Shown here one piece after another: positions 13,346-32,556 of a stretch of 64,000 nucleotides of DNA (within the stretch, counting starts at the first letter, position 1; each line of letters begins with the position of its first letter). The DNA lies in contig NZ_SWKN01000010.1 of NCBI RefSeq assembly GCF_005871185.1, positions 186,001 through 250,000 of the forward strand, read 5' to 3'. Source of the stretch: Limnobacter alexandrii. GTDB lineage: Bacteria; Pseudomonadota; Gammaproteobacteria; Burkholderiales; Burkholderiaceae_B. The notes below the pieces were generated by a model. That model was given only the letters and a program-made list of their open reading frames with translations. It did not search any database and had not been told where the DNA came from. A program made the position numbers and the translations under genes.

Positions 13346-15064
13346 GTGTTGAGTAATTTCCGTTTGTCCATGACCTGGGTTCACACCTGGTTTGGTCTGG
13401 TGTTGGGTTTTGTGTTGATGGTCTGTTTTTTCTTCGGATCGTTGTCGGTGTTTGATCGCGAAATAGACCGCTGGGCCATTCCTGAAACACGGTTCGATGC
13501 CCAGCCCATGCCTTCATTCGACAAGGTGTTGTTGCCAGCCTTGCAAGGGCTTGAACCCGATGAGGTGGATTACGCCACGAACATGCCAAGGCTGCACGAC
13601 CCGTCCAAGGGCGAAATGACCCCGCGCACCGAACTGCCGGTGGATGAATACTGGGCCTATGTAACCCACCGCGACCCAGTGTTGGCCGCCGGTGTGGGCT
13701 ATGGTGTGCCTTTGGCGAAAAACCCGGAAGACCACAATCACATTCACAAGAATGTGACTTTGGACCCCAGAACCGGCGCGGTGTTGCCCGATGACAAACT
13801 GAAAATTGGCAGCCACTGGTTTTATCCCATGCACTACAGCTTGCAGTTGAAGTGGAAAAATTTGGGCATCTGGATTGTGGGCTTGGCCGCGCTGATGATG
13901 CTGGCCGCATTGGTCACCGGTGTGATCATGCACCGCAAAGTGTTTCGTGAATTCTTCACCTTCCGCCCCTGGAAGCGCACGCAGCGCGCCAGCCTGGATT
14001 TGCACAACCTCACTGGTGTGGTGGCCTTGCCATTCCACTTCTTTTTTGCATTCACGGGTTTGGTCATTTTTGCGAGTTTTTACTTTTTGCCAGTGACCAG
14101 CACCCTGCTTGACCCGCTGCACAAGCAGCATGAAATTCACGAAGCCGCTGCAACCGGTTTGCCGCACGATGCCGCAGGTGTACCCGGCACCATGAGCAGC
14201 GTGGATGCCATGGTTGAAGAAGCCAAACGCCGCTGGGCTGAACGTGACATGGCTGGTGAAGTCGGCTTTTTGGTCATGCACCACGTGGGCGATGCCAACA
14301 GTTATGTGAGCATTTACCGCGCTGGCAGCGACCGGGTTGCCTTGGTGGGCGAGGGTATTCACTTCAAAACCAGCACGGGTGAAGTGCTCAGTGAAGACCC
14401 GCCGCGCACGCCTGTTTCCGAGGTGAATGAATTTTTGACAGGTTTGCATTTGCAGCACTTTGAACACTGGTTCTTGCGTTGGCTGTATGTATTGGGTGGC
14501 TTGTTGGGAGCGGTGTGTATTGCAACCGGTTTTATTTTCTTCGTTGAAAAACGCAAGGCTCAGCACGCGAAAAGTGGCAGCAATGGCAGCCGGGTGGTTG
14601 ATTCACTGGCGGTAACTACGGTAACCGGCATGGTGATGGCCGCAGTGGGTATGTTGGTGATGAACCGTATTTTGCCTGCCGATATGTTGGGCAAGGCCGA
14701 TTGGGAAAAAGCGACCTTCTGGACCGTGTGGGCATTGAGCTTTTTGCACGCCTATGTTCGCAGCGCACCTGTGGCACAGGGCTTGTTCAACCCGGCGTGG
14801 CGTGAACAGTGCTGGGGCCTTGTGATGCTCAGTATTTCAGCCGTTGCGTTGAACTGGGCCACCACCGGCGATCACTTGTTTAAAACAATTTTCACTGACA
14901 CTTACTGGCCCGTGGCTGGTGTTGATTTAAGCCTGTTGGCATGTGCTTTCGTCAGTGGCTGGGCGGCGTTGAAACTTGCCCGGCGCGAGCGTGGTGCACA
15001 GCTTGAGGTCAAAAAACCTGCAAAGCAGTCGAACACTGAAGCAGGCGAGGTGGCCCATGCTTGA
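13346..15064 (+). CDS. PepSY-associated TM protein, probable ferric-siderophore reductase (cassette A)
   Basis: 572 residues from a GTG behind AAGGGG. The layout is typical of PiuB/FoxB/FpvG-like proteins: first helix with HTWFGLVLGFVLMVCFFFG, a periplasmic PepSY-like stretch containing FDREIDRW, a second helix region after YPMHYSLQLKW, another periplasmic domain, then LHLQHFEHWFLRW and four more helices. The histidines near the membrane edges are candidates for haem or flavin ligation. The family reduces ferric siderophore complexes at the inner membrane; that role is inferred. It overlaps the DUF3325 gene by eight bases. Confidence 0.85.
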   Translation: MLSNFRLSMTWVHTWFGLVLGFVLMVCFFFGSLSVFDREIDRWAIPETRFDAQPMPSFDKVLLPALQGLEPDEVDYATNMPRLHDPSKGEMTPRTELPVDEYWAYVTHRDPVLAAGVGYGVPLAKNPEDHNHIHKNVTLDPRTGAVLPDDKLKIGSHWFYPMHYSLQLKWKNLGIWIVGLAALMMLAALVTGVIMHRKVFREFFTFRPWKRTQRASLDLHNLTGVVALPFHFFFAFTGLVIFASFYFLPVTSTLLDPLHKQHEIHEAAATGLPHDAAGVPGTMSSVDAMVEEAKRRWAERDMAGEVGFLVMHHVGDANSYVSIYRAGSDRVALVGEGIHFKTSTGEVLSEDPPRTPVSEVNEFLTGLHLQHFEHWFLRWLYVLGGLLGAVCIATGFIFFVEKRKAQHAKSGSNGSRVVDSLAVTTVTGMVMAAVGMLVMNRILPADMLGKADWEKATFWTVWALSFLHAYVRSAPVAQGLFNPAWREQCWGLVMLSISAVALNWATTGDHLFKTIFTDTYWPVAGVDLSLLACAFVSGWAALKLARRERGAQLEVKKPAKQSNTEAGEVAHA

Positions 15065-16640: not shown

Positions 16641-16659
16641 GTTAATGATAATCATTATC
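16641..16659. promoter_or_regulatory. Near-consensus Fur box of the DUF2325 gene
   Basis: GTTAATGATAATCATTATC agrees with the classical 19-bp Fur consensus at 18 of 19 positions, the best match in the window. It lies just upstream of the minus-strand DUF2325 gene and downstream of the receptor gene, so it should repress the DUF2325 gene under iron sufficiency. Confidence 0.88.
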
Positions 16660-16722: not shown

Positions 16723-19161
16723 TTAGAAGTTTGTGCTGTAGGTCAAGTTAAATGAACGGCCAGCGCGTGGAGCAAAAGTTGAAATGTAGCCATCGTAGAT
16801 GTCTTCATCGGTGAGGTTTGCACCGCTTAAGCGAACGCTCCAGTCGCCTGCATCATAAATGACACCGGCGTCCAGCTTGGTGTAAGAGGGTAGCTCGACA
16901 TCCGCTGCGGTCAAAGGACCGGCCGGGTCATTGGGCAGGCCAGATACGCGGGCGTCGGCGTAGCTTACACCTGCAGTAATGCTCCAGCGGGACAAACCAA
17001 AGCGACCCAGATTGAATTTGTTGAACAAACCAAATGCATTTTCAGGAACACCCGTGAGTTGATCGCCCACAGGCAGTCGATTGTCCTGGGTAATTTTGGC
17101 GTCAATGTAGTTGTAGCTGGCAATCATTTCCCAACCTGGCATCACTTCGCCGAACACCTCCAGCTCGAAGCCTTGGGATTGTTGTTCACCCACTGCAATA
17201 TTGAAACCAATATTGGCAGGATCAGTCGTGGAAACATTTTGGCGTGTGTAATCAAACAGCGCTGCATTGATGGTCATTCTTGGTGTGAAGTCGTACTTCA
17301 CGCCAATCTCGTATTGCTCACCTTCTTGAGGATCAAAGTCGTTGCCGTTGACATCGCGCCCGCTGTTGGGTGTAAAGGATTTACTCCAGCTGGTGTAATA
17401 AGAAACATCATCGCGCGGTTGCCACACAAGGCCTGCGCGTGGAGAAAAAGCGGAGTCTGATTTTTCGGTTTTGGTGCTGCCTGCAACGCGGTCCTGGCTG
17501 AAGGTTTCCAGTTCATCGTATCGACCGCCCAACAGGGCTTTGAATCCATTGCCGAAGTCCATCAGGTCCTGAAAGTAAATGGCCTGCGTGTTGCTGCCGG
17601 AATCCACGCCCGGGAATGGTTCCACCAGTGGGCCAGTGGCCTGTCCCGGGTACTGCGGATTGAAAATATTGAGCGGGGTGTACGGTGCCACAATGAAGCC
17701 GTAACCGGAGGTGATTTTTCCATATTCGAAACCGACCAGCCAGTTGTGCGCAATGCTGCCGGTTTGCCCCAGGCCAGACAGCTCGGTTTGGGAAATTCGG
17801 GAACGATCATAGGACTCCACCTGCCGAACACGGCGACTCAGCAAATTGGTCGTGGGGTCGTAGCTGGTGCCCTGAATGGTGCTGTCATCGCTGTACACAT
17901 TGTTCGCGTAAAAGCCCTGGCGGAACTTCCAGCCGTTCTCCAGCTTGTGTGTAAAGTCGATGCGGGCCAGGTCGCGTGTCAGCTTGCCACCTGCGCCCAA
18001 GGGGTTGGTCGGGTCGCCAAGTTGAATGTCGGTTGGAATTTTGAAGAAATCAGGATGCCGAATGAAATAGGCCTCGCGCCCGGGGCGATCAATGTTTTGG
18101 GTCAGCAGTTCGAATTCAACCGTGGTGTCTTCGGAAATGTCCCACGCCAACACTGGGCTGACCATGGTGCTGTTGCCACTCAACTGGTCTGCGAAAAAAC
18201 CGTCTTTTTGCAAATCGGCGGTCAGTCGATAGCGAACACTGCCGTCTTCATTGAGCGAGCCTGTGCTGTCCAGGCTGGTGCCCAGCAAGCCAAAGCTGCC
18301 AATGGTCGTTTCAAGCGTTCTGCTGGTTTCAGCTTCAGGGCGTTTGGTCACAATATTCACCAGGCCCGACAGTGAGCCTGCGCCGCCGTACAACACCGAA
18401 GCGGGGCCTTTCAAAAATTCAATGCGCTCAATGTTCACCGCTGATTGTGGTGTTTCAAACCCGCTTTCGCGAAAGCCGTTGTAGGCACTTGCAGCGCCTG
18501 CGGTGTTAAAGCCTCGCAGGTAAAAACTGATGGCGTAGGGGTTGCCTTGCACACCTTCCTTGTCCACGCCGGCAATGTAGTCGGCGATTTCGTCCAGTGC
18601 GCGAGGCGCCAAATCTTTAATGGCTTGTTCACTGATGACGGTGACCGATTGTGGCGTGTCGCGCAGTGCGATGTCTGAACGTGTGGCTGTACTGCTTTGC
18701 GTGGCCCGGTAACCAATGACTGGGCCTGTTGCTGATTCCTGTTCTGCCTGTGCAGCCACTGACACGGTGGGCAGGGTGCCACCGCTGCGCACAGGCGCCG
18801 CGCGTAGCACAAAGCCGCCACCTTGCTGTGTGCTGGCCTCAACTCCCGTGTTGCTCAAGATCATGTCCAGCGCAGCCTGGGTACTGAAATTACCCCTGGC
18901 ACCCTGGCTTTGTTTGCCTGCCACCAAACCCTGGCTGTAACTGAGATTCACGTTGGCAGTGCGTGCGAATTGCTCCAGTGCAGCACCCAGTGGGCCCGCC
19001 GCAATGTTGTAGCTTTGTTCGGCTTGCTGATTTGCAGGGCTTGCTTGTGCGAAAGCAGGTGCATGCAAGGTGGTGCCCAGGCCGATGCTGAGCAGGGTGG
19101 CCTGTACAAGGCTTGCCAGCGGTTTCATGCGCAGGCCGTGAAAAGATTTGAATGTGTTCAT
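16723..19161 (-). CDS. TonB-dependent ferric-siderophore receptor with STN signalling domain (FecA/FpvA type)
   Basis: 812 residues. The signal peptide ends at APAFA (about 38). The STN domain (about 50-120, IAAGPLGAALEQFARTANV to GVEASTQQGGGFVLRA) is the part that signals to a FecR partner. A TonB-box-like stretch PTVSVAAQ follows, then the plug (DIALRDTPQSVTVISEQAIKD; VERIEFLKGPASVLYG-like INIERIEFLKGPASVLYG) and a 22-strand barrel ending in SFNLTYSTNF with the terminal Phe. Its fecR and fecI genes lie immediately upstream. The siderophore is not determined by sequence. Confidence 0.93.
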   Translation of the reverse strand: MNTFKSFHGLRMKPLASLVQATLLSIGLGTTLHAPAFAQASPANQQAEQSYNIAAGPLGAALEQFARTANVNLSYSQGLVAGKQSQGARGNFSTQAALDMILSNTGVEASTQQGGGFVLRAAPVRSGGTLPTVSVAAQAEQESATGPVIGYRATQSSTATRSDIALRDTPQSVTVISEQAIKDLAPRALDEIADYIAGVDKEGVQGNPYAISFYLRGFNTAGAASAYNGFRESGFETPQSAVNIERIEFLKGPASVLYGGAGSLSGLVNIVTKRPEAETSRTLETTIGSFGLLGTSLDSTGSLNEDGSVRYRLTADLQKDGFFADQLSGNSTMVSPVLAWDISEDTTVEFELLTQNIDRPGREAYFIRHPDFFKIPTDIQLGDPTNPLGAGGKLTRDLARIDFTHKLENGWKFRQGFYANNVYSDDSTIQGTSYDPTTNLLSRRVRQVESYDRSRISQTELSGLGQTGSIAHNWLVGFEYGKITSGYGFIVAPYTPLNIFNPQYPGQATGPLVEPFPGVDSGSNTQAIYFQDLMDFGNGFKALLGGRYDELETFSQDRVAGSTKTEKSDSAFSPRAGLVWQPRDDVSYYTSWSKSFTPNSGRDVNGNDFDPQEGEQYEIGVKYDFTPRMTINAALFDYTRQNVSTTDPANIGFNIAVGEQQSQGFELEVFGEVMPGWEMIASYNYIDAKITQDNRLPVGDQLTGVPENAFGLFNKFNLGRFGLSRWSITAGVSYADARVSGLPNDPAGPLTAADVELPSYTKLDAGVIYDAGDWSVRLSGANLTDEDIYDGYISTFAPRAGRSFNLTYSTNF

Positions 19162-19231: not shown

Positions 19232-20203
19232 TCAAATCCCCTCAATGCTCACCCAGAATTGGGTGCGGTAAGTAAGCTTCAGCTTTTCAGTGCGCGCCAG
19301 AAATTGCAGCGTGTTGTCGATTTGCTGAATCTGGAAAATACCGGAAACACGCTGGTCTGCAATGCCGGGGTGGCAACGTAAAATGCCGGTGCGGTAGCGG
19401 GCCAGTTCCCTGATCAAATCTTCGAGGCGCATGTTCTCGGCTGTGATCACACCTTCCGCCCAGCTTGCAGGATCGATTGTTGTGGTGTGCAGTTTTTCGG
19501 TGTGTGTTTTGCCAAGCCAGTGGTGTTCACCGGTTTGAACCAGGGCGGGTACAGCGCCACTGGCTGGAAACAAACGCACAGCGCCTTCCTGAACAGCCAC
19601 TTTCGCACCGTCGTTGTACAGCCGTACCGTGAACCGGGTGCCGATTGCCTGAATTGGACCGAAAGGGGTATCTACAAAAAAAGGTCGCTTGCTGGGCTGG
19701 TTCACATCAGCCCCGGTGTCGATCCGAATTTCGCCACGCTGCAGCGTGATTCGACGCGTAGGGCCAGTCAGGTGGGCACTCACAGCCGTATCGGTGTTCA
19801 AGGTCAGGGTGGTTCCATCACTTAAGCTTAGTGTGCGCTGCTCGCCTACCGAGGTGCTGACATCTGCAACCATGCGCTGCCAAGGTGTGTGGTCGCGCGC
19901 CAGCCAACCACTGCCAATTGCGAGTGCGCCAAAGCCAAATACCTTCAGCACGCGCCGGCGTTGCTGTGTTTCCGCAAGGCGTTGTTGCTGAAGGGAGTTC
20001 AGGGTGGCATGGGCAAGTTTTGCAGGCAGCTTTGAATGCTCAACCTTGAATGCAGACACGCGTTGCCAGGCCTCCCTGTGCGAAGGGTGTCGTTGCAACC
20101 ATTCAGTGAAACGGGCCAGCGTGGTTTCAGTGGGTGTGTTGTAGTGCAGCTTGACGGTCCAGGCGATGGCCTCGTCAACAATGTGCTTGGGCAACATGTT
20201 CAT
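19232..20203 (-). CDS. fecR: FecR-family transmembrane anti-sigma regulator
   Basis: 323 residues. The N-terminal DUF4880 anti-sigma domain (about 8-55, EAIAWTVKLHYNTP to HREAWQRVS) is cytoplasmic; a single helix lies at about 85-101; the periplasmic FecR domain contains AIGTRFTV with Gly188-Thr189, the site where cell-surface-signalling anti-sigma factors self-cleave; a C-terminal DUF4974-like STN-binding region (about 255-320) follows. It overlaps fecI by four bases (ATGA) and precedes the receptor by 70 bases. It should hold the FecI partner until the loaded receptor signals. Confidence 0.92.
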   Translation of the reverse strand: MNMLPKHIVDEAIAWTVKLHYNTPTETTLARFTEWLQRHPSHREAWQRVSAFKVEHSKLPAKLAHATLNSLQQQRLAETQQRRRVLKVFGFGALAIGSGWLARDHTPWQRMVADVSTSVGEQRTLSLSDGTTLTLNTDTAVSAHLTGPTRRITLQRGEIRIDTGADVNQPSKRPFFVDTPFGPIQAIGTRFTVRLYNDGAKVAVQEGAVRLFPASGAVPALVQTGEHHWLGKTHTEKLHTTTIDPASWAEGVITAENMRLEDLIRELARYRTGILRCHPGIADQRVSGIFQIQQIDNTLQFLARTEKLKLTYRTQFWVSIEGI

Positions 20204-20697
20204 GATTCAAACCGCAGGCTGTAGCATTGCTTCAAAGCCCTGGAAATATAGCGTTCTGCTGTGGCCAGTGACACCTGTAATTCCTTGGCGATTTGCGGGC
20301 AGGTGTAGCCGTCAAGCTGGGCCAGTAAAAACGCCTTCCGCACGGGTGGTTTCAGTGCATCCAGTACTCGATCAATTTCAATCAGTGTTTCAAGAAACAT
20401 CAGGCGTTGTTCGGGGGCGGGTGTTTCTGCCTCGGGCATGGCTGCCAGCGTTTCCAGCCATGCCTTTTCAAGTGCACGTCTGCGCCAGTGGTCCACCATT
20501 AAATTTTTTGCAATGGTGGAAAGGTAGGCGCGGGGTTCGCCCAGCGGCTGTGTGTGCTGGCGGGTTAGAACCCGCATGAACACATCTTGGGCCAAATCGG
20601 CGGCATCGAAACTGTTACCCATTTTGCGCACCAGCCAGGATTGCAGCCAGGCATGGTGGTTGGTGAACAGGCTGCGTGGATCGGTATGGCTGGCCAT
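20200..20697 (-). CDS. fecI: FecI-family ECF sigma factor
   Basis: 165 residues from ATG 20697. Region 2 (about 15-75, FDAADLAQDVFMRVL and EPRAYLSTIAKNLMVDHWRR) and region 4 (about 105-155, VRKAFLLAQLDGYTCPQIAKELQVSLATAERYI) are intact, in the pattern of iron-starvation ECF sigma factors. It begins only five bases after the DUF3325 stop and overlaps fecR by four bases. It is expected to direct transcription of the receptor gene after FecR processing; Fur control would come from the box at 22819-22837 at the head of the operon. Confidence 0.92.
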   Translation of the reverse strand: MASHTDPRSLFTNHHAWLQSWLVRKMGNSFDAADLAQDVFMRVLTRQHTQPLGEPRAYLSTIAKNLMVDHWRRRALEKAWLETLAAMPEAETPAPEQRLMFLETLIEIDRVLDALKPPVRKAFLLAQLDGYTCPQIAKELQVSLATAERYISRALKQCYSLRFES

Positions 20698-20702
20698 GTT
20701 GT

Positions 20703-20975
20703 TCAACCTTTCCTGCCGAATCTGGACACCGCCATGGTGAGCACGCTGGCCACGCTGAACAAGCCGAACCATTCAACCAGTGCATGCGAAAGTGTGTTGT
20801 TTGTTGTGAGTAACAGCAGTGCGAATACCAGCCACACAAAGCCTGCGCAACGCCTTACCGAAGGGCTGCCCAGGCGTTGAAGCAATTGGAATGCGGGATC
20901 GCGTTGGTGGCGATACATGCCACTTGCGATGAACGCGAGCGCACAACAAATTAAAATGAATGCGAGAGCCAACAT
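20703..20975 (-). CDS. DUF3325 small membrane protein (cassette B)
   Basis: 90 residues with three hydrophobic segments (MLALAFILICCALAFIASGM; CAGFVWLVFALLLLTT). It starts one base after the PepSY stop (TGACATG) and ends five bases before fecI. It is the positional counterpart of 15057-15368. Its place between the reductase-like gene and the sigma factor ties reductase and signalling genes into one transcription unit. Confidence 0.8.
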   Translation of the reverse strand: MLALAFILICCALAFIASGMYRHQRDPAFQLLQRLGSPSVRRCAGFVWLVFALLLLTTNNTLSHALVEWFGLFSVASVLTMAVSRFGRKG

Positions 20976-20976
20976 G

Positions 20977-22506
20977 TCAGCCTTCCTTTTTGCGATGGCA
21001 ATACCAGGCCAGCCCTGCCAGCAGCGTTGCGGTCAACAGGGTGGTGGCATCGAAGCCGGCCAGCACCCAGTCCTGATGCATGTGCGCATTGAATAAGTGC
21101 CGTGTCGCGGTTGTGGCCGCCAGCACTGGAAGCAGGGCGTAAAGCAATGCACCAGCAACACTTAGCCACAACACTGCTTTTTTGCTTGGCAAAACACTGG
21201 CCACGAGAATGGCCACAAGCCAGGCGGAGAACAAACACGCCACTTCCATTTCACTTCGGCCTGCATAGTCCGTTGGCAGCAGACGATTGGCCAGAAAGTA
21301 AACCGGCAAAGCCACCGGAAAACCCAGCACCACGCCCACGTTCACGGCTTGCACCCAGCGCAGGTCTTTGCGTTGCGTGTTTTTCTTTTCTTTCTTCTGG
21401 CGAGACTTCACCCAATAAAACACACCAGTGGCCACCATGGCACAGCCCATCAAACCTGACACCACATACAACAGCCGAAGCCAGGGGCCTGCGTACAAGC
21501 CTTCATGCAAGCCCAGCATGACATCGCGAAATCCGCGTGCTGCCGATCCGGTTTGTGTGCGGTGCAAAATCAATTCGCCTGTGCTGGCATTCAAGGTTAC
21601 GATTTCTGCACTTCTCAACAATGATTCCGAAACACCTGAATTGAATGCAATTCTGCTGGCCTCATCGTTGGGCGCTTCCACTTCAATGCCCGAAATACGC
21701 TGCAGTGGCATGTGCTTTTCAGCTTCTTCCAGCAAGGCTGGAACGGGAAGCATGGCTGAGGGTGTTCCTGAAGGTTTTGCATCGGGCAGTGATACAAACA
21801 CCTCGTGAAAAAATTGTTGTTTGTTGTCCTGCCCAGGGCCGTAGAAGGTGGAAATGATCCAGGGAAAACAAACAAACATCATGAACACCAAACCGGAGTA
21901 GGTGATCATGAGTTGAAAGGGCAGGGTGGTGACACTCATCAAGTTGTGCATGTCCAGCCACGAGCGCGCGCCTTTCTTGGGCCGAAAGGTAAAAAACTCG
22001 GTAAAAATTTTCTTGTGAACGATTACGCCAGTCACAATGGCCACAAACATGAACAGGGTGGCCAAGGTAACCACCCAGTCGCTGATGGTGCGCGGCAGGT
22101 AGTGCAGCTTCCAGTGCATTTGGTAAAGCAATTGCCCGCCTTTTGTTTCTCGCGTGTCGAATGGCTGGCCAGTGTGTATGTCGAGCAGTTCGGTTTTGCG
22201 TGCCCCTTCATCTGGCAGTTTCCAGTGCACTTGCAGGTAGGGTTGATTGCGGTTTTTCGGAAGCTGAATTAACCAGCTTTCAGCATTCGGCGCAACCGAA
22301 TTCAAGTAGTCAAAACTGGTTTGAATGGCTTGGCCTGGCTCTGAAACGTATTGTGCTTCGGGCAGCTCCGGTTTCATCCAGCGGTCTATTTCCGTGTCCA
22401 GATAACCCAGCGTGCCGGTGACAAACATGAAGTACAGCACCCAGCCCAACAGCAAACCGGTCCAGGTGTGAAGGGCAGACATGCGTGCGCGGAAAGACAG
22501 CTTCAT
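20977..22506 (-). CDS. PepSY-associated TM protein, probable ferric-siderophore reductase (cassette B)
   Basis: 509 residues from ATG 22506, which overlaps the DUF3649 stop (ATGA). Same architecture as the plus-strand paralogue: MSALHTWTGLLLGWVLYFMF, LDTEIDRW, LLYQMHWKLHYLPR, a long periplasmic domain, GLHEGLYAGPWLRLLYVVSG and C-terminal helices. Conserved membrane-edge histidines are retained. Probably reduces a ferric siderophore imported by the co-transcribed receptor. The two paralogues are clearly diverged, so this is not a recent duplication. Confidence 0.85.
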   Translation of the reverse strand: MKLSFRARMSALHTWTGLLLGWVLYFMFVTGTLGYLDTEIDRWMKPELPEAQYVSEPGQAIQTSFDYLNSVAPNAESWLIQLPKNRNQPYLQVHWKLPDEGARKTELLDIHTGQPFDTRETKGGQLLYQMHWKLHYLPRTISDWVVTLATLFMFVAIVTGVIVHKKIFTEFFTFRPKKGARSWLDMHNLMSVTTLPFQLMITYSGLVFMMFVCFPWIISTFYGPGQDNKQQFFHEVFVSLPDAKPSGTPSAMLPVPALLEEAEKHMPLQRISGIEVEAPNDEASRIAFNSGVSESLLRSAEIVTLNASTGELILHRTQTGSAARGFRDVMLGLHEGLYAGPWLRLLYVVSGLMGCAMVATGVFYWVKSRQKKEKKNTQRKDLRWVQAVNVGVVLGFPVALPVYFLANRLLPTDYAGRSEMEVACLFSAWLVAILVASVLPSKKAVLWLSVAGALLYALLPVLAATTATRHLFNAHMHQDWVLAGFDATTLLTATLLAGLAWYCHRKKEG

Positions 22507-22793
22507 GACAGGCCCCCGTGTGTGGCCCACACTGCCGCGCCGGTGATCAATAGCGCAGCGAAGGTTTCGAGGCTGAGTCGCTTTAATGACAGGCGTGTAA
22601 AAGCCCAGATAAAAACTGCGAGATAAATCAGGAACACAATTTCAATTGCAGTCAAAACCTGTGTGTGCCGTTGCCCCGGTAAAACAGGGGCGAGCAGTAT
22701 GGCCGCCCACATTGAAATGAAATAGCCCCCGATGGTCGCGAGTAGCAGACGAACCGAAATGTCGAAAGGGCGACCGTAGCTGGTGAGTTTCAT
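22503..22793 (-). CDS. DUF3649-type small iron-uptake membrane protein (cassette B)
   Basis: 96 residues with three hydrophobic segments (ISVRLLLATIGGYFISMWAA; VFLIYLAVFIWAFTRLSL). It is the first gene of the six-gene minus-strand unit running to 16723, and lies 26 bases from the Fur box at 22819-22837. Its stop overlaps the PepSY start by four bases. The counterpart in cassette A has the same order. Function unknown; accessory role to the reductase inferred. Confidence 0.8.
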   Translation of the reverse strand: MKLTSYGRPFDISVRLLLATIGGYFISMWAAILLAPVLPGQRHTQVLTAIEIVFLIYLAVFIWAFTRLSLKRLSLETFAALLITGAAVWATHGGLS

Positions 22794-22927: not shown

Positions 22928-23608
22928 TCAGCACTCAGTCCATTTGCGAAGCAGGTTGTTGTACAAGCCAGTAAGCCGAACCAGTTCAGGGTGGCCCTCG
23001 CCGTATTGCGTGCGCAGCTTGATGAGGGATTCATCCATTTGAAACAACAGACGCCGGCATTCCAGATCTTTCACCATGCTTTGCATGAACATGTAGCACG
23101 CCAACCGTTCACCGCGAGTGACCGGATTCACTTGGTGCATGGAACCCGATGGGTAAACCACCAGACTGCCTGCCGACAACTTAACCGTTTGCATGCCATA
23201 GGTGTCTTCAATGACCAGTTCACCACCCTCGTAGTCTTCAGGTTTCGACAAAAACAGCGTGGCAGAAATGTCGGTGCGCAACGCGCTGCCGTCTGGCAAA
23301 TAACGCACGGTGCTGTCAGTGTGCAAGCCGTAGTGATTGGTTTCACCGGCATAGCGATTGAAGTTGGGTGGCAGAATTTTGTAGGGCAGGGCAGCCGAAA
23401 TCAATCGGCTGCTTCTGTTCAATGCGCGCATCACCAACACACGCAGTTCTCGCAACACTTCGCTTCCTTCTGGAATTTGAAGATTGTTCTTGACCAGGCG
23501 GGCCTGTGTCCCCGCACTTTGACCGGTTGCCCAGTCGGCTTGCTGCAGCAACTTGTGGATGCCTGCAAGCTCTTCGGCGCTCAGAACGTTGTCGATGGTG
23601 ACTAGCAT
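22928..23608 (-). CDS. piuC: PiuC-type Fe(II)/2-oxoglutarate-dependent hydroxylase (PKHD-type)
   Basis: 226 residues, the usual length. The iron ligands are visible: His96-x-Asp98 in YGLHTDSTVR and His158 in SGSMHQV, with Arg168 in VTRGERLA as the 2-oxoglutarate anchor. The family (PiuC/YbiX) is encoded beside catecholate-siderophore receptors and is thought to act in the periplasm or cytoplasm on siderophore use; the substrate is not established. It begins 17 bases after the receptor gene ends, so the pair is one operon under the Fur box at 25850-25868. Confidence 0.92.
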   Translation of the reverse strand: MLVTIDNVLSAEELAGIHKLLQQADWATGQSAGTQARLVKNNLQIPEGSEVLRELRVLVMRALNRSSRLISAALPYKILPPNFNRYAGETNHYGLHTDSTVRYLPDGSALRTDISATLFLSKPEDYEGGELVIEDTYGMQTVKLSAGSLVVYPSGSMHQVNPVTRGERLACYMFMQSMVKDLECRRLLFQMDESLIKLRTQYGEGHPELVRLTGLYNNLLRKWTEC

Positions 23609-23625: not shown

Positions 23626-25824
23626 TTAAAAGTCATATCTCAAGGTGGCGATCAACTGACGACCTTCTCCGGGAATGCCCTGACCACCGCCTTCAGCCAG
23701 TTGGGAGATATATCGTTCGTCAAACACATTGTACAAGTTCAAGCGAACCTGAACGTCCTTGGTGAATTTGTAGGTGGTGTACAAATCAACCACGGTGTAG
23801 CTTGGGATGCTCACTTTCACATTGCCTGTGGTGTCGGGTTGAACACCGCTGGTTTGTTCATCCACATACTGCAGGCCACCACCCAAAGTGAATTTGGGTG
23901 TGATGTCATAGGTGGTGAAAATATTGAACGAGTGCTTGGGTGTTCCACCCAGTTCCTGACCCACGGAGAAGGGAGAAGTGGGTGCGCTAGTCACTTCAGA
24001 TTCGAGGTAGGTGTAGCCTGAGTAAAGTTTCCACGCCTTGGTCACTTGTCCCGCAACGAGTACTTCGAAACCATCAATGTAATATTCCACGTTTGGTGTG
24101 GTTACACCACCAGCGGCGGGTGCGGGCAAGCGACCTTCATCCGTTTCTGTGCGGAAAACTGCAGCATTGATGTCAAGTCCTTCACCAATTGTCATTTTGC
24201 TGCCCAGTTCATAGGCCTGAATTTTTTCAGTGGGCGTGTCGAACGTGTTGCCAGCCACCCGGTCATTCATGCTGCCGCCGGCAAGCTGAATTTGGTTGCG
24301 ATCAAAGTTGCCTGAAATGTTGAAGGCAGTACCATACGATGCATACAAGGCATGGTTTGGCGTCAGTTTGTGCACCAAGCCCAGGCTGTAGCTGGTCTCG
24401 GTGTCTTCGCGCATGAAGCTGCGGTTTTCTGCTTGCTGGGGTGTCAAGCCTGCGGCTGTGGAATTTTGGCGGTCTTCCTCATTCGCGAAAGCCTTTACTT
24501 TGTCGTAGCGAATGCCTGCATTCAGCTCCCATTTTTCATTGAACTTCATGGTGTCGAGCAGATAAATGCCCATTTCTTCGGTCTCGAACCGGTGAATGCC
24601 GCCGTAGGCCAGTGTTCCCGTGAATTCGCGTTCTGCCGGGTTAAACAAGCTGGTGACGGGGCCATTGGTGTCCAAACGTCGGCGGTTTTCGTATTCATAG
24701 AAACCGAAATCGAAACCAGCCACCATGTCGTGTTGAATGCTGCCGGTGTTAAGGCTGAACAGCAAATCCGTTTGGTTCCTAAAGCTGGTGTCTACCTGGT
24801 CACGTGGTTTCAAATTGCCTACCGCAAAACCCGAGGCAGGGTTGTTGTTCCCTGCACCTGTTCCGTTGTCTACAAATCTTGGAGACGATGTAATCGAGTC
24901 ATTCCCAACTTGTGCAAATCGGGTTTGATTGCGAATCACCTGTCCGCTGGCCAGCGCATGCTGAACTGCCAAGCCAATCTGGTTTACTTCAATGTCTTTG
25001 TAGTCATTGGTGTGGCCGTAGAAGTTGTCGAAATTGATGCCATCGGGCAAGCGGCCAGTACCACCGTTGCGGCGGTCGAAAGGCAAGCCAGCATCCGGAA
25101 TGTCATTGGTTTTGATGTGCAATACATCAGCAGTAATTGAAGTTGGTTTGTTCAATCCCCAGGTGTAAGCCGCATAGACACCGTATCGGTCCTCTTCGGC
25201 TGTGTTACGGCCAGGCAGATCGGCGCTGTGTTTCATCAAGTTGATGCGAAGGGCTTCGTCCTCATCTAGCACACGGTTCATATCCAGCGTGGTGCGGAAA
25301 AAGCTGTCAGTGCCTACGCTGACTTCAGCACGATTGAAATCAATTCCCAAGGGTTGTTTGGTCACAAAGTTGATGGTACCGCCCGCAGAGCCCCGACCCG
25401 AGAAGGCCGAGTTCGGGCCTTTGACCACTTCCAGTTGCTCGATGAAAAACGGATCGCGGAAGTAGTTGCCAATGTCGCGCATGCCGTTGACGTTGATGTC
25501 GTCACGGGCATTGAAACCGCGAATTTTTAGCTGATCGCCACCGGGTGGGTTGCCTTCCCCAGCCTGAAGACTGATACCGGGAATGTTGCGCAAGGCCTCA
25601 TTCAGTGAGGTGACATTTTGTTCTTCAAGCAAGTCCTGCGGCAATACCGTGATGATGCGCGGTGTTTCCTGCAAGGGTCGTGTGTACTTGATGCTGTCCA
25701 TTTGTTCGCCACGGAAGTCGATTACATCAACGTCGGGCAAGGTTTGTGGATTTTCTTGGGCATTGGCGAGGCTGCTTAGTGCCAAGGCCACTGCAAGGGC
25801 GATGGGTTTCGGGGAATGCTGCAT
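23626..25824 (-). CDS. piuA: TonB-dependent siderophore receptor, PiuA/Fiu-like, no STN domain
   Basis: 732 residues with a signal peptide (cleavage near SLANA), then the TonB-box region LPDVDVIDFRGEQ, a plug (PRIITVLPQDLLEEQNVTSL; FIEQLEVVKGPNSAFSGRG) and a barrel ending RQLIATLRYDF with a terminal Phe. No STN domain precedes the plug, so it is not a signalling receptor. Pairing with piuC points to monomeric catechol-type ferric compounds, as for PiuA/Fiu; that substrate is inferred from neighbourhood. Confidence 0.9.
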   Translation of the reverse strand: MQHSPKPIALAVALALSSLANAQENPQTLPDVDVIDFRGEQMDSIKYTRPLQETPRIITVLPQDLLEEQNVTSLNEALRNIPGISLQAGEGNPPGGDQLKIRGFNARDDINVNGMRDIGNYFRDPFFIEQLEVVKGPNSAFSGRGSAGGTINFVTKQPLGIDFNRAEVSVGTDSFFRTTLDMNRVLDEDEALRINLMKHSADLPGRNTAEEDRYGVYAAYTWGLNKPTSITADVLHIKTNDIPDAGLPFDRRNGGTGRLPDGINFDNFYGHTNDYKDIEVNQIGLAVQHALASGQVIRNQTRFAQVGNDSITSSPRFVDNGTGAGNNNPASGFAVGNLKPRDQVDTSFRNQTDLLFSLNTGSIQHDMVAGFDFGFYEYENRRRLDTNGPVTSLFNPAEREFTGTLAYGGIHRFETEEMGIYLLDTMKFNEKWELNAGIRYDKVKAFANEEDRQNSTAAGLTPQQAENRSFMREDTETSYSLGLVHKLTPNHALYASYGTAFNISGNFDRNQIQLAGGSMNDRVAGNTFDTPTEKIQAYELGSKMTIGEGLDINAAVFRTETDEGRLPAPAAGGVTTPNVEYYIDGFEVLVAGQVTKAWKLYSGYTYLESEVTSAPTSPFSVGQELGGTPKHSFNIFTTYDITPKFTLGGGLQYVDEQTSGVQPDTTGNVKVSIPSYTVVDLYTTYKFTKDVQVRLNLYNVFDERYISQLAEGGGQGIPGEGRQLIATLRYDF

Positions 25825-28657: not shown

Positions 28658-28716
28658 GGCGTGCAATCAATGTGAACAACGCAACGATGTTGACAGCCGG
28701 GATTTATCTTGTCAAT

Positions 28717-28735
28717 ATAAACGATAATTATTCTC
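28717..28735. promoter_or_regulatory. Fur-box-like site between the small secreted protein and the sigma/anti-sigma hybrid
   Basis: ATAAACGATAATTATTCTC matches the Fur consensus at 13 of 19 positions; an overlapping register starting at GATAAT 28723 scores about the same. It is 59 bases from the minus-strand start and 38 bases from the hybrid gene start. Confidence 0.6.
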
Positions 28736-28773
28736 ATTTCATAATTTGTTTTATCGTTCAAGCGTGAACTTGC

Positions 28774-30093
28774 ATGCACTGTGACAGCAATCCCACCTTC
28801 CAGGAACAGGCGCTGGACCTTGAGTTCGTTCACTGCTATGGCAGTCATCTAGGCTGGCTGACCGCTTGGTTTCAACGTCGTTTAAGCTGTAACGGTCTGG
28901 CCTGCGAGTTGGCTCAAGATGTGTTCCTCAAGCTGTATGAGCAGCGGCAACAACTCACGGTCATTCGTGAGCCAAAGGCTTGGTTGGCCACGGTTGCCCA
29001 TGGTTTGTTGGTGAATCACTACCGGCGGGCAGATCTGGAGAAGGCTTATTTGACTGCCTTGGCATCGCACCCCTTTCAACATGCTCCGAGTCAGGAACAA
29101 AAAGCAGTTTTGTTTGAAATGCTGTTGGAGTTGGACCGATGTTTGGGCGAGTTGCCACAGAAGGTTCGCCAGGCATTTTTACTCGCCCAACTTGAGGGTA
29201 AAAAACAGGAAGACATTGCCAGTGAGTTGGGAGTTTCTCTGAGCATGGTGAAGAAGTACATGGCGCAGGCTCAGGAAAAATGTGCTGCCATTGACAAGTT
29301 GAGTGTTGAGCAGCGGGTGGTTTCTTCTCGTGCGCTCAACGCCATGCCTCGTCATGGTCGTCGGGCCTTGTTTAAATCTCTTGCTGTGTTGTTTGGCGCA
29401 ACTGGTTTGTTTTATGGGTATCGTCGAAGCGATTATTCCGCTGATATGGTGACGGCAAGAGGAGAAATACGAACACAGTTGCTGCAAGATGGCAGCGAAC
29501 TGACGCTCGATTCCGACAGCGCCGTGGAGATTGCATTTACAGCAACGCAGAATCTGATTGTCTTGCGCCGCGGCCGGGTTATGGTGCGCACCGCAGGTGA
29601 TGTTGGCTTTCAACAGCTGAAGCCCGTCGTCAAAACTCGCGAAGGGTATGCGCAAGCCTTGGGCACTGTGTTTTCTGTTGAGCAGAAAGCAAACACCACC
29701 CAAGTTGAAGTATTCGAAGAAAGGGTTCAATGGCGTCCCTTGCGCCAAGGCGAACCCCAAATTTTACAGGCTGGAGAACAGGCAGAGTTTGGTCCTCAAG
29801 GTGTGCTGTCGCATCAGTCGATTTCGCAAGCGCAGGCTGCGTGGGTACGTGGTTTGTATGTGGCCAATTCCGTGGATCTAAAAACCTGGGCTGCTGAAAT
29901 CAGTCGTTACCGGGCATCGCGCATTCATTGTGATTCAGCAGTTGCAAGTTGGCGCGTGTCTGGCACCTTTCCTCTGACCAAACCCGAGGTGGCGCTGGCC
30001 GCATTGCAAGACGCATTGCCAGTTCAATTGATTCACAACGAGCAACTGGCAGCAAGCCCGGTGCTCTTGGTGGCTCGCGATCGCAATGAATAA
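28774..30093 (+). CDS. ECF sigma factor / FecR anti-sigma hybrid protein (IutY-like)
   Basis: 439 residues in one uninterrupted frame. Residues 16-90 are sigma region 2 (CELAQDVFLKLYEQ; EPKAWLATVAHGLLVNHYRR), 115-168 are region 4 (VRQAFLLAQLEGKKQEDIASELGVSLSMVKKYM). A linker leads to a transmembrane helix (about 198-215), then a periplasmic FecR domain (about 225-345) with the self-cleavage motif ALGTVFSV (Gly297-Thr298) and a C-terminal STN-binding region (about 365-435). IutY of Pseudomonas putida is the known precedent for such a hybrid. The usual DUF4880 anti-sigma segment before the helix is very short here. The STN receptor follows 90 bases downstream. Confidence 0.93.
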   Translation: MHCDSNPTFQEQALDLEFVHCYGSHLGWLTAWFQRRLSCNGLACELAQDVFLKLYEQRQQLTVIREPKAWLATVAHGLLVNHYRRADLEKAYLTALASHPFQHAPSQEQKAVLFEMLLELDRCLGELPQKVRQAFLLAQLEGKKQEDIASELGVSLSMVKKYMAQAQEKCAAIDKLSVEQRVVSSRALNAMPRHGRRALFKSLAVLFGATGLFYGYRRSDYSADMVTARGEIRTQLLQDGSELTLDSDSAVEIAFTATQNLIVLRRGRVMVRTAGDVGFQQLKPVVKTREGYAQALGTVFSVEQKANTTQVEVFEERVQWRPLRQGEPQILQAGEQAEFGPQGVLSHQSISQAQAAWVRGLYVANSVDLKTWAAEISRYRASRIHCDSAVASWRVSGTFPLTKPEVALAALQDALPVQLIHNEQLAASPVLLVARDRNE

Positions 30094-30183
30094 TTTGTAA
30101 CTGTTTGCTGTACTTTTTTGTTTTTCGATTGGCCTATGAGTTGAACCTTTGTTTTAACTCATTTGATGAATTGGAAAAACTGT

Positions 30184-32556
30184 ATGTCTTCTTCATTCGC
30201 ATTTCCCCGCAAGCTATCCCCAGTGGTACTTGGTTTGCATCTGGCCATGGCCGGGGCGGGCGGGTTTTCATTGCTTGCCAGCACTGCGGTATTCGCCCAG
30301 CAAAGCGCCATCAATATTCCTGCTGGAGCTTTGTCAGAGTCTTTGAACATGCTGGCCGAGCGGCAAGGTGTGGTGTTGTCTTATGAGCCCTCACTAGTCA
30401 AGGGGCTTCGCAACACAGCATTGAGCGGGCAGTTGACCTTCGAACAGGCCGCCACGCAGTTGCTGGCAGGTACAGGTGTGGCTTTGCAGCCAACATCGAC
30501 CGGATATACCTTGGTTAAAAATTCTCCAACTGGCGCAGCCACCTTGAAGGCAGTGACTGTAACCGCCACAGGTGAACCTGCGTATGGCGCACCCGCGGCC
30601 GCGGGGTTCTCTGCAAAGAATGCAAAAATTGGCGTGCTTGGTGAGCGTTCGTTGCTGGAAACGCCGTTCTCCGTGAATGTGATTTCAAGTGAGCAACTCG
30701 AAAGCGCCGGTGTGAACAATCTCGCCAATTTGGTGCGGCTAGACCCCTCACTCACCAGTTCGTTTTCTGCGGTGGGTTACTACGATGCGGTTTCCATTCG
30801 TGGTTTAAGCCTGAATAACTGGACGAACTATTACAAAAACGGTTTGCTGTTTGCCAACCAGGCAAAAACCCCGTTTGAGAACATTGAACGCGTCGAAGTG
30901 ATGCGCGGTTTGACTGGTTTTCTGCAAGGTTTTGCAGCACCGGGTGGTGCAATCAATTACGTGACTGAACGCCCAACACCCACCTGGCAGCGAAAAGCTG
31001 AAATTGTGGTGGATGAATTTGGCACCTTGATGCCGGGTATTGATGTAGGTGGCCCATTGACGGAAGACGGTCGGGTGGGCATTCGTATTAACGCCGCCGG
31101 AGGGCAAGAAAACTATTTTGTAGATGAGGTTGAAACAGACCGCGGGTTTGCTTCTGTTGCACTTGATTGGCTTGCCACAGACAGGTTGACCATTCAACTG
31201 GATGCACAGGTGGACCAGCGTGAGGGTACCACCCAGCCCTCTTTGGAGCTCAATACCAACGGGCAGATTCCACAGGGTGTTGACCCATCGCGTTACCTGG
31301 GGCAACCCTGGGCCACGTATGACACGCTGACCCGTGAGTATGCGCTGGCTGCTGATTTCAGGATCAATGAACAGTGGAAAGCGTCGTTCAAGATCAATGA
31401 TGCACACCTGTATCGCGACGACTTCAGCGCGAATATCGGGAATATTCAACCCAATGGCGATTTTGATATTCAGGAGTACAAATCGATCGGTGAAGTGCGT
31501 GATTCCCGGAATATGGAAGTGGCTGTTTATGGCGACTTCAAATTCGGTGCAACGCGCCATGAAGTGGCAGCGGGTTACACGCAGCGTAAACTTGCGGCTG
31601 TTTTTGGTAACAGTGTATTCAGATCCGTGGGAACTTCGAATTTATACAACCACGTGATCATTGCCGATCCGGGCGGTGTGCCGGGCGAGCCAAGACTGGC
31701 TATCTTGAATCGCGACAAAGGTGTGTTTGTTTCCGACTTCATGACCTTCAACGAGCAATGGCAGGCCTTGGTGGGACTGCGCAGCTCGGAAGTTGAATTT
31801 TTCTCGGTTTTCAGCCCGACCGTGTATGAAGATACTGTGACCACACCCACCTTGGCCCTGATTTACAAACCGGTGCCAAGCACCTCAATTTACGCAAGTT
31901 ATGTGGAAGGTTTGGAGCAGGGTGGTACCGCACCCAACAATGCAAACAATCGCAACGAGCAATTGGAGCCAGTCACAGCCGAGCAAACTGAAATCGGTGT
32001 GAAAACCGAGTGGTTCAATGGCAAGCTGATCACGACTGCGGCCTTGTTTGAAACAGAAGTACCGCTGAGTTATCTGGACCAGACCAGCAATGTGTTTGGG
32101 TATTTTGGGACTCGCCGCCACCGTGGTATCGAACTGACTGGTACCGGGGAAATTTGGGAAGGCGGGCGCATCAATGCCGGTTTGGTGGCGCTGGATGCGA
32201 AAGCATTGAATACGGGTACGGCAGCCAACGACAATAAGGTGCCTCAAGGTGTGGCAGAACGGCAGGCTACTTTGTGGTTGGATCAGAAAACAGGTGTTCA
32301 GGGCTTGTCTGTTCAGTTTGGTCTGCGTCACTCAGGTGAACGTGCCGTGAATCCAAGCAATAGCGTGTTCGTTCCCGCGTGGACCGTGGCTGATGCCGGT
32401 GTGCGTTATTCAACCAAACTGGCTGGAAAGAATGTTGATTTAGGCCTCTTGGAGCAAAATCTGACTGACAAAACCTACATCAATGAAACCGGCTTTGGTT
32501 CGCTTTATTTCGGCAGTACACGCGCAACCAGTTTGACAGCCAGTTTCGAGTTTTAA
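30184..32556 (+). CDS. TonB-dependent siderophore receptor with STN domain, partner of the hybrid regulator
   Basis: 790 residues from ATG 30184 (weak GGAA ribosome site); ATG 30166 would add six residues. A signal peptide ends at STAVFA; the STN domain spans about 35-110 (INIPAGALSESLNMLAERQG to GVALQPTSTGYTLV). The TonB-box region is KAVTVTATGE, followed by a plug (ERSLLETPFSVNVISSEQLE; NIERVEVMRGLTGFLQG) and a barrel with terminal Phe (LTASFEF). The upstream hybrid makes it a signalling receptor. The substrate is not evident; aerobactin-type specificity is only suggested by the IutY analogy. Its stop overlaps the TetR stop. Confidence 0.92.
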   Translation: MSSSFAFPRKLSPVVLGLHLAMAGAGGFSLLASTAVFAQQSAINIPAGALSESLNMLAERQGVVLSYEPSLVKGLRNTALSGQLTFEQAATQLLAGTGVALQPTSTGYTLVKNSPTGAATLKAVTVTATGEPAYGAPAAAGFSAKNAKIGVLGERSLLETPFSVNVISSEQLESAGVNNLANLVRLDPSLTSSFSAVGYYDAVSIRGLSLNNWTNYYKNGLLFANQAKTPFENIERVEVMRGLTGFLQGFAAPGGAINYVTERPTPTWQRKAEIVVDEFGTLMPGIDVGGPLTEDGRVGIRINAAGGQENYFVDEVETDRGFASVALDWLATDRLTIQLDAQVDQREGTTQPSLELNTNGQIPQGVDPSRYLGQPWATYDTLTREYALAADFRINEQWKASFKINDAHLYRDDFSANIGNIQPNGDFDIQEYKSIGEVRDSRNMEVAVYGDFKFGATRHEVAAGYTQRKLAAVFGNSVFRSVGTSNLYNHVIIADPGGVPGEPRLAILNRDKGVFVSDFMTFNEQWQALVGLRSSEVEFFSVFSPTVYEDTVTTPTLALIYKPVPSTSIYASYVEGLEQGGTAPNNANNRNEQLEPVTAEQTEIGVKTEWFNGKLITTAALFETEVPLSYLDQTSNVFGYFGTRRHRGIELTGTGEIWEGGRINAGLVALDAKALNTGTAANDNKVPQGVAERQATLWLDQKTGVQGLSVQFGLRHSGERAVNPSNSVFVPAWTVADAGVRYSTKLAGKNVDLGLLEQNLTDKTYINETGFGSLYFGSTRATSLTASFEF

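Follow-up and report, generated by a model that had tools for sequence, protein, structure and literature searches.

A FecI-like sigma factor joined in one frame to a FecR periplasmic domain: a conserved hybrid of the IutY kind and evidence suggesting that such fusions recur

The locus at 28774..30093 raises the question of whether one unbroken reading frame joins an ECF sigma factor to a FecR-type anti-sigma protein, and if so, how such a protein arose and how it might signal. The window is the whole stretch of DNA that was analysed, 64,000 nucleotides from Limnobacter alexandrii. A sequence-only reading had proposed a single open frame of 439 residues carrying sigma regions 2 and 4, a transmembrane helix and a FecR domain, and had suggested a domain search with the corresponding profiles. 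The features of the hybrid are the following.

28774..30093, + strand: sigma/FecR hybrid gene, 439 aa (start ATG 28774, stop ends 30093)
28837..29034, + strand: sigma region 2, aa 22-87 (Pfam PF04542, Sigma70_r2, 4.5e-10)
29125..29283, + strand: sigma region 4, aa 118-170 (Pfam PF08281, Sigma70_r4_2, 7.1e-16)
29287..29358, + strand: linker, aa 172-195, aligning with the tail end of the FecR cytosolic part, without DUF4880 itself
29359..29376, + strand: twin-arginine motif RRALFK, aa 196-201
29365..29421, + strand: membrane segment, aa 198-216, weakly hydrophobic (AlphaFold2 model, Kyte-Doolittle)
29443..29727, + strand: FecR periplasmic domain, aa 224-318 (Pfam PF04773, 1.1e-14)
29662..29667, + strand: Gly297-Thr298, where the bond cut in FecR/FoxR self-cleavage would lie (GTxFxV)
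29827..30036, + strand: C-terminal signalling subdomain, PupR-like, aa 352-421 (PDB match, AlphaFold2 model)

The proposed coordinates, frame and length proved exact. The domain search placed both sigma regions and the FecR domain over their Pfam gathering cut-offs, and NCBIfam, PDB and AlphaFold2 agree with this layout in one polypeptide. The NCBIfam layout consists of a FecI-like sigma factor over residues 21-171 and FecR over residues 183-419. The general ECF model TIGR02937 is matched with 64.3 bits (cut-off 42.9); the best-scoring models, PRK12528 (170.6 bits) and FecI (144-149 bits), are both under their own cut-offs, as is the FecR model over 183-419. The nearest solved relatives in the PDB search are the PupR periplasmic domain, over residues 219-421 (3.9e-28), and ECF sigma factors. 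The AlphaFold2 model (mean pLDDT 86, pTM 0.61) consists of helical sigma domains, a helix at 193-207 and the PupR fold, with low confidence at 208-221, and among PDB structures it comes closest to 6ovk chain R (TM 0.81 of target). The Kyte-Doolittle maximum of the membrane segment is 1.26 (residues 198-216); that of two orthologues is 1.22 and 1.44. The single frame is hereby confirmed to join an ECF sigma factor that is FecI-like by its best-scoring models, a short linker, a membrane segment and a FecR periplasmic domain. The domain order points to an inner-membrane protein with the sigma factor inside and the FecR domain outside.

An ordinary split fecI-fecR-receptor unit lies about 8 kb away, all on the minus strand, as had been noticed from the letters of the window, and was used for comparison.

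20200..20772, - strand: FecI-type sigma factor of the split unit
19232..20203, - strand: FecR of the split unit, DUF4880 at aa 10-51
16723..19161, - strand: STN receptor of the split unit (STN 37 bits, barrel, plug)

The Pfam domain DUF4880 was found in both split FecR proteins scanned as positive controls, that of the window (1e-12) and that of genome G608 (3e-9), and in none of the four hybrids scanned. In the alignment with split FecR proteins the homology of the hybrid starts near the end of the cytosolic part, just ahead of RRxLFK and the membrane segment; the linker before that segment measures 24-31 aa, being 7 aa longer in two orthologues than in the window hybrid. A sum of a whole FecI and a whole FecR is ruled out by the absence of DUF4880. 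Judged by its sequence, the hybrid is not a complete FecR: the periplasmic FecR domain with the PupR fold is present, and the cytosolic sigma-binding DUF4880 is missing. Residues 9-59 of E. coli FecR are reported to bind FecI and to activate it (PMC9249621), so the hybrid, lacking DUF4880, must manage without that binding and activating part. Of 68 split FecR proteins, 52 have a motif of the type RRxx.K ahead of the membrane segment, as do three of four hybrids, the exception being the hybrid of genome G286 described below. For E. coli FecR the use of an internal Tat signal has been reported (PMC11533796); if the Tat reading is true, about 195 residues, the whole sigma factor, would precede the internal Tat signal in the hybrid.

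Full-length one-frame hybrids occur in 3 of 16 genomes of the genus, the window's own, G003 and G004. The unit is considered accessory, since no full-length hybrid was seen in the remaining 13. The orthologues in G003 and G004 are uninterrupted and share 68-70% protein identity. A frameshift or sequencing error at the sigma-FecR junction, which had been put forward as the way in which the single frame might prove false, is excluded because these two of the 15 other genus genomes carry the same full-length one-frame architecture. In the sigma and periplasmic parts dN is 0.18-0.26 and dS at least 1.19 over three pairwise comparisons (three of the six dS values are saturated or above 2.1), and the linker is under looser constraint (dN 0.38-0.51). 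By these substitution rates, both halves of the hybrid are under purifying selection. At all three loci the divergent upstream neighbours encode an AhpF-type flavoprotein and an AhpC-type peroxiredoxin (the domain scan covered only the window copy), and a receptor gene follows downstream; a TetR gene is directly next in the window and in G003 and stands one gene further on in G004.

The sequences surrounding the hybrid gene carry the following features.

28690..28721, + strand: putative housekeeping promoter of the hybrid, TTGACA (28690-28695) and an A/T-rich AATATAAAC region (same block and same spacing in three of three genomes)
28717..28741, no strand assigned: Fur-like box, two overlapping 19-mers (28717, 28723) with 6/19 mismatches each (consensus match)
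30087..30137, + strand: candidate FecI-type promoter of the receptor, TGAATAA (overlapping the hybrid stop codon), 22 nt from its start to TGTACTTTTTT, then TCGATTGGC (promoter profile)
30184..32556, + strand: TonB-dependent receptor with signal peptide and N-terminal STN domain (Pfam, NCBIfam and PDB matches)
30376..30519, + strand: STN signalling domain of the receptor (Pfam 8e-6, below gathering, 26 vs 28.4 bits)

The receptor had been described as an STN receptor, and it stands directly downstream of the hybrid; Pfam STN remains under its cut-off, but the N-terminus matches the solved signalling domains of FemA, FoxA, FecA and PupB. The start is probably the ATG at 30184 and not the TTG at 30163. 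The closest solved chain is the mycobactin receptor FemA (4e-73), a likeness that may serve as a hint at most to the ligand. The hybrid would accordingly have an adjacent transducing receptor whose gene is its predicted target.

A sigma-dependent promoter of the receptor gene can be named on sequence grounds, at 30087-30137. The promoter profile has 30 columns and was built from 78 sites downstream of fecR in split systems (111 stretches searched), none of them from the window's genus. Its best match in the 64 kb window is at 30108-30137 with a score of 19.2, the next reaching 12.3, and at the two orthologous loci the top match takes the corresponding position, with scores of 19.7 and 18.3. 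Scores under 19.2 are found for 13 of the 78 training sites. A score of 19.2 is attained at some position in 10 of 200 random sequences of 64 kb, so the argument for this promoter rests on position and conservation. TGAATAA placed 22 nt before TGTACT repeats the layout of GGAAAAT-22-TGTCC ahead of E. coli fecA. An inverted repeat, GTTGAA-7-TTTAAC, is located at 30140-30158 between hybrid and receptor (TTCAAC in two orthologues) and could be a hairpin or an operator.

The putative housekeeping promoter of the hybrid itself rests on conservation, because the generic sigma-70 scan did not list the TTGACA/AATATAAAC block, and a clear Shine-Dalgarno sequence was not seen ahead of the hybrid ATG. 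The Fur-like box that had been claimed over the hybrid is present and keeps its place relative to TTGACA in all three genomes; its quality is only moderate, with 6/19 mismatches in the window and 7 in the best box at each orthologous locus, the best box elsewhere in the window having 1. Boxes were scored against the Fur consensus.

Further Fur-like boxes at 16641, 22819, 12983 and 25850 (1, 4, 5 and 5 of 19 mismatches) mark an iron cluster in the window. It comprises a PepSY_TM protein (20977-22530), a 2OG-Fe(II) oxygenase (22928-23608), a membrane protein that on reading is similar to PepSY_TM (13346-15064), the split fecIR-receptor unit and a Fiu-like receptor (23626-25824).

Taken together, we assign a probability of about 0.8 to a two-gene cell-surface signalling unit formed by the hybrid sigma/anti-sigma protein and the transducing receptor, with RseP-type release of the sigma factor. 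That the locus looks like a complete signalling unit had already been suggested, and the hybrid, the transducing receptor and the iron-type control region support it at the level of sequence. The model for release is IutY of Pseudomonas putida KT2440 (PP2192, group ECF243; PMC5411451, PMC9249621), from which, in the presence of aerobactin, Prc and RseP are reported to strip the periplasmic and membrane parts, so that a sigma domain of about 23 kDa is released (PMC5411451). In the proposed sequence of events iron shortage would lift Fur repression of the hybrid, and the sigma factor, having no cytosolic anti-sigma domain, would be kept inactive by membrane tethering or occlusion. The receptor would bind a ferric siderophore, and its signalling domain would then act on the FecR C-terminus. 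As in IutY, periplasmic processing at site 1 and intramembrane cleavage by RseP may free a sigma fragment of about 23 kDa, which would bind RNA polymerase and transcribe the receptor gene from the candidate promoter at 30087-30137. The predicted fragment of the hybrid, residues 1-198 to 1-205, has a mass of 22.6-23.3 kDa, to be compared with the approximately 23 kDa described for IutY (PMC5411451). RseP is encoded in the genome (314 bits, cut-off 147.55). The search of the genome for S41 peptidases gave one, of CtpA size (469 aa), and no long Prc of the kind that IutY needs; CtpA is reported to act beside Prc on P. aeruginosa FoxR (PMC11637429).

Activity without proteolysis, in which RNA polymerase binds the tethered sigma factor and the receptor signal alters conformation, appears unlikely. 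It would fit the loss of any cytosolic inhibitory domain and a linker that, at 24-31 aa, is long enough for some freedom; it is opposed by IutY, which has the same architecture, is reported to require RseP and shows domain release that tracks activity (PMC5411451), and by the presence of an RseP gene in the genome.

The distribution of the architecture beyond the genus was examined in several samples. In the family sample of 268 genomes, with at most six candidates scored in each, three full-length hybrids were among the matches listed, all of them in the window's genus. A junction probe run on the order sample gave 1 of 399 genomes among the matches listed, which was the window's own, G003 and G004 not being among them. 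In a sample of 388 genomes of the Pseudomonas-type genus the junction probe matched 64 genomes, and one among the matches listed, G286, spans the junction. A search of 398 genomes of the same genus, with four candidates each, gave none at 1e-46 among the matches listed; G286 was in this sample yet was missed, so the empty answer is weak. No match across the junction was obtained from ten genomes with all candidates scored or from 109 genomes searched with a 3-row profile, and the 30 of 1511 plasmid records listed all match in two pieces. Among the 80 loci retained from 243 confirmed genome-contig loci none has both halves in one frame, one frame of Oxalicibacterium flavum aside. In that frame (L091:9364-10941, 526 aa from stop to stop) the sigma match is confined to residues 63-132 and the cytosolic part of FecR is retained; the frame was read as a broken or overlapping pair and was not counted. 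At many Pseudomonas loci (L065-L080 and others) fecI and fecR share a frame and are separated by only one stop codon, so that one change could give a fusion keeping DUF4880; an intact fusion of that kind was not seen at those loci.

The second hybrid, in the Pseudomonas-type genome G286 (L197:4064-5329, minus strand), has 421 aa and an STN receptor downstream. It lies among split pairs that are 80-85% identical; compared with three close ones it shows 83-85% DNA identity in both halves and lacks a net 284, 284 and 272 nt (blastn), the missing stretch being the gene boundary plus DUF4880, which was scanned in these split relatives in G608. It nests inside a clade of split pairs in both the sigma and the FecR tree. 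A single fusion for the window clade and G286 was rejected on the sigma tree, with a log-likelihood lower by 108.7 and a p-AU of 1.8e-84 that is readable only as strong rejection. Since G286 nests among split pairs and the joint clade is rejected, this architecture has at least two separate origins, each by loss of the same domain. As read from these alignments and trees of a single assembly, the G286 hybrid is an independent fusion by a separate deletion of about 0.28 kb covering the same domain, and it shows the fusion step itself, with close split relatives, one deletion and one hybrid. It resembles the window hybrid in architecture, in the missing DUF4880 and in the STN receptor downstream, and differs in its separate origin, in lacking the RR motif and in that no FecI-type promoter element was found upstream of its receptor (L197:1580-3958); its sigma subgroup therefore probably reads another promoter.

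The window gene most likely arose by deletion of the fecI/fecR boundary together with DUF4880, leaving the end of the FecR linker and the twin-arginine membrane segment. That it descends from the split unit nearby is not demonstrated: the two are not sisters in the maximum-likelihood trees of sigma and FecR, and a constraint uniting them in one clade is not rejected (p-AU 0.24). We give even odds to a wider reading, in which deletion of DUF4880, fusing sigma to the membrane segment, is a recurrent route (two cases, with IutY perhaps a third). The product would be a minimal switch, the inhibitory and activating roles of that domain being taken over by the tether alone, and an entire folded sigma factor, forming a cytosolic part of about 195 residues, would stand ahead of an internal twin-arginine signal.

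A degenerate fusion, a leaky or dead regulator produced by a chance deletion, is improbable. The G286 hybrid, found in one genome whose close relatives are split, would suit it, as would the receptor gene of G003, in which an in-frame stop is present; the hybrid is nevertheless kept in three genomes of the genus at 68-70% identity, both of its halves show a dN much lower than dS, and the genus loci retain the receptor promoter. The stop in the G003 receptor gene, which lies beside an intact hybrid, is at codon 171 (L165:8752-8754), after which the frame continues; it may reflect decay or a sequencing error.

It is also very improbable that an internal start or a cleavage yields a free FecR-like protein and a free sigma factor, the unit then being an ordinary pair. 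The Gly-Thr self-cleavage bond described for FecR and FoxR (PMC9249621, PMC11637429) is kept, GTxFxV being present in all four hybrids (the window clade of three and G286), and the periplasmic part may thus be cut before any signal; a cut at this bond, however, is periplasmic and leaves sigma joined to the membrane, and the domain that would bind a free sigma factor is missing. That two genes were joined on paper by sequencing or assembly error found no support and is already refuted by two more genomes with the same one-frame fusion and the same domain missing. The signalling unit with RseP-type release of sigma remains the favoured interpretation.

Among known systems IutY is the closest in kind. 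According to a review it is the only fused ECF sigma factor of its kind with experimentally characterised proteolytic activation (PMC8999054). No other FecI/FecR-type hybrid was found described in the portions of the open-access literature consulted, and the large ECF classification may list more. The likeness to IutY that had been named in the sequence-only reading holds by sequence features and by the published descriptions: both proteins have an N-terminal ECF sigma factor, one membrane segment, a periplasmic FecR-type domain and an adjacent receptor, IutA in the case of IutY. The sigma part of IutY is given as ending at residue 164 or 168 of 374, so that a cytosolic anti-sigma domain would not fit in (PMC5411451, PMC9249621). 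The hybrid has 439 aa against 374; its periplasmic part is longer and its linker measures 24-31 aa, whereas IutY, by the residue numbers in these papers, seems almost linker-free. The hybrid's receptor is nearest to FemA among solved chains; that of IutY is a tested aerobactin receptor. IutY is reported to be activated by truncation at many periplasmic positions (PMC5411451). Its residues F251/V253, W301 and L313/317/320 correspond, by spacing and motif only, to F300/V302, W357 and L369/A373/I376 of the hybrid; for D210 and R231 no counterpart was mapped in the hybrid. These comparisons suggest that the window gene is a new, conserved hybrid of the IutY kind, by likeness of architecture, with evidence that such fusions recur, and the repeated origin of the fusion is a more interesting result than the new hybrid itself.

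In groups ECF36, ECF48, ECF52 and ECF53 a sigma factor is likewise joined to an extension bound to the membrane, which proteolysis is presumed to remove; the extension domains are others, and the passages of the review on these groups mention no TonB-dependent receptor (PMC8999054). FecI/FecR/FecA, PupI/PupR/PupB and FoxI/FoxR/FoxA share with the hybrid the homology of each half, the receptor signalling domain, the fecA promoter layout and the Gly-Thr bond. Unlike the hybrid, they use two proteins, and the cytosolic FecR domain is reported to bind sigma and in E. coli also to activate it (PMC9249621). How FecR-type proteins both inhibit and activate sigma is a live question, which is made testable by a conserved natural hybrid without the responsible domain beside a split unit in the same genome; the same pairing lets both architectures be compared.
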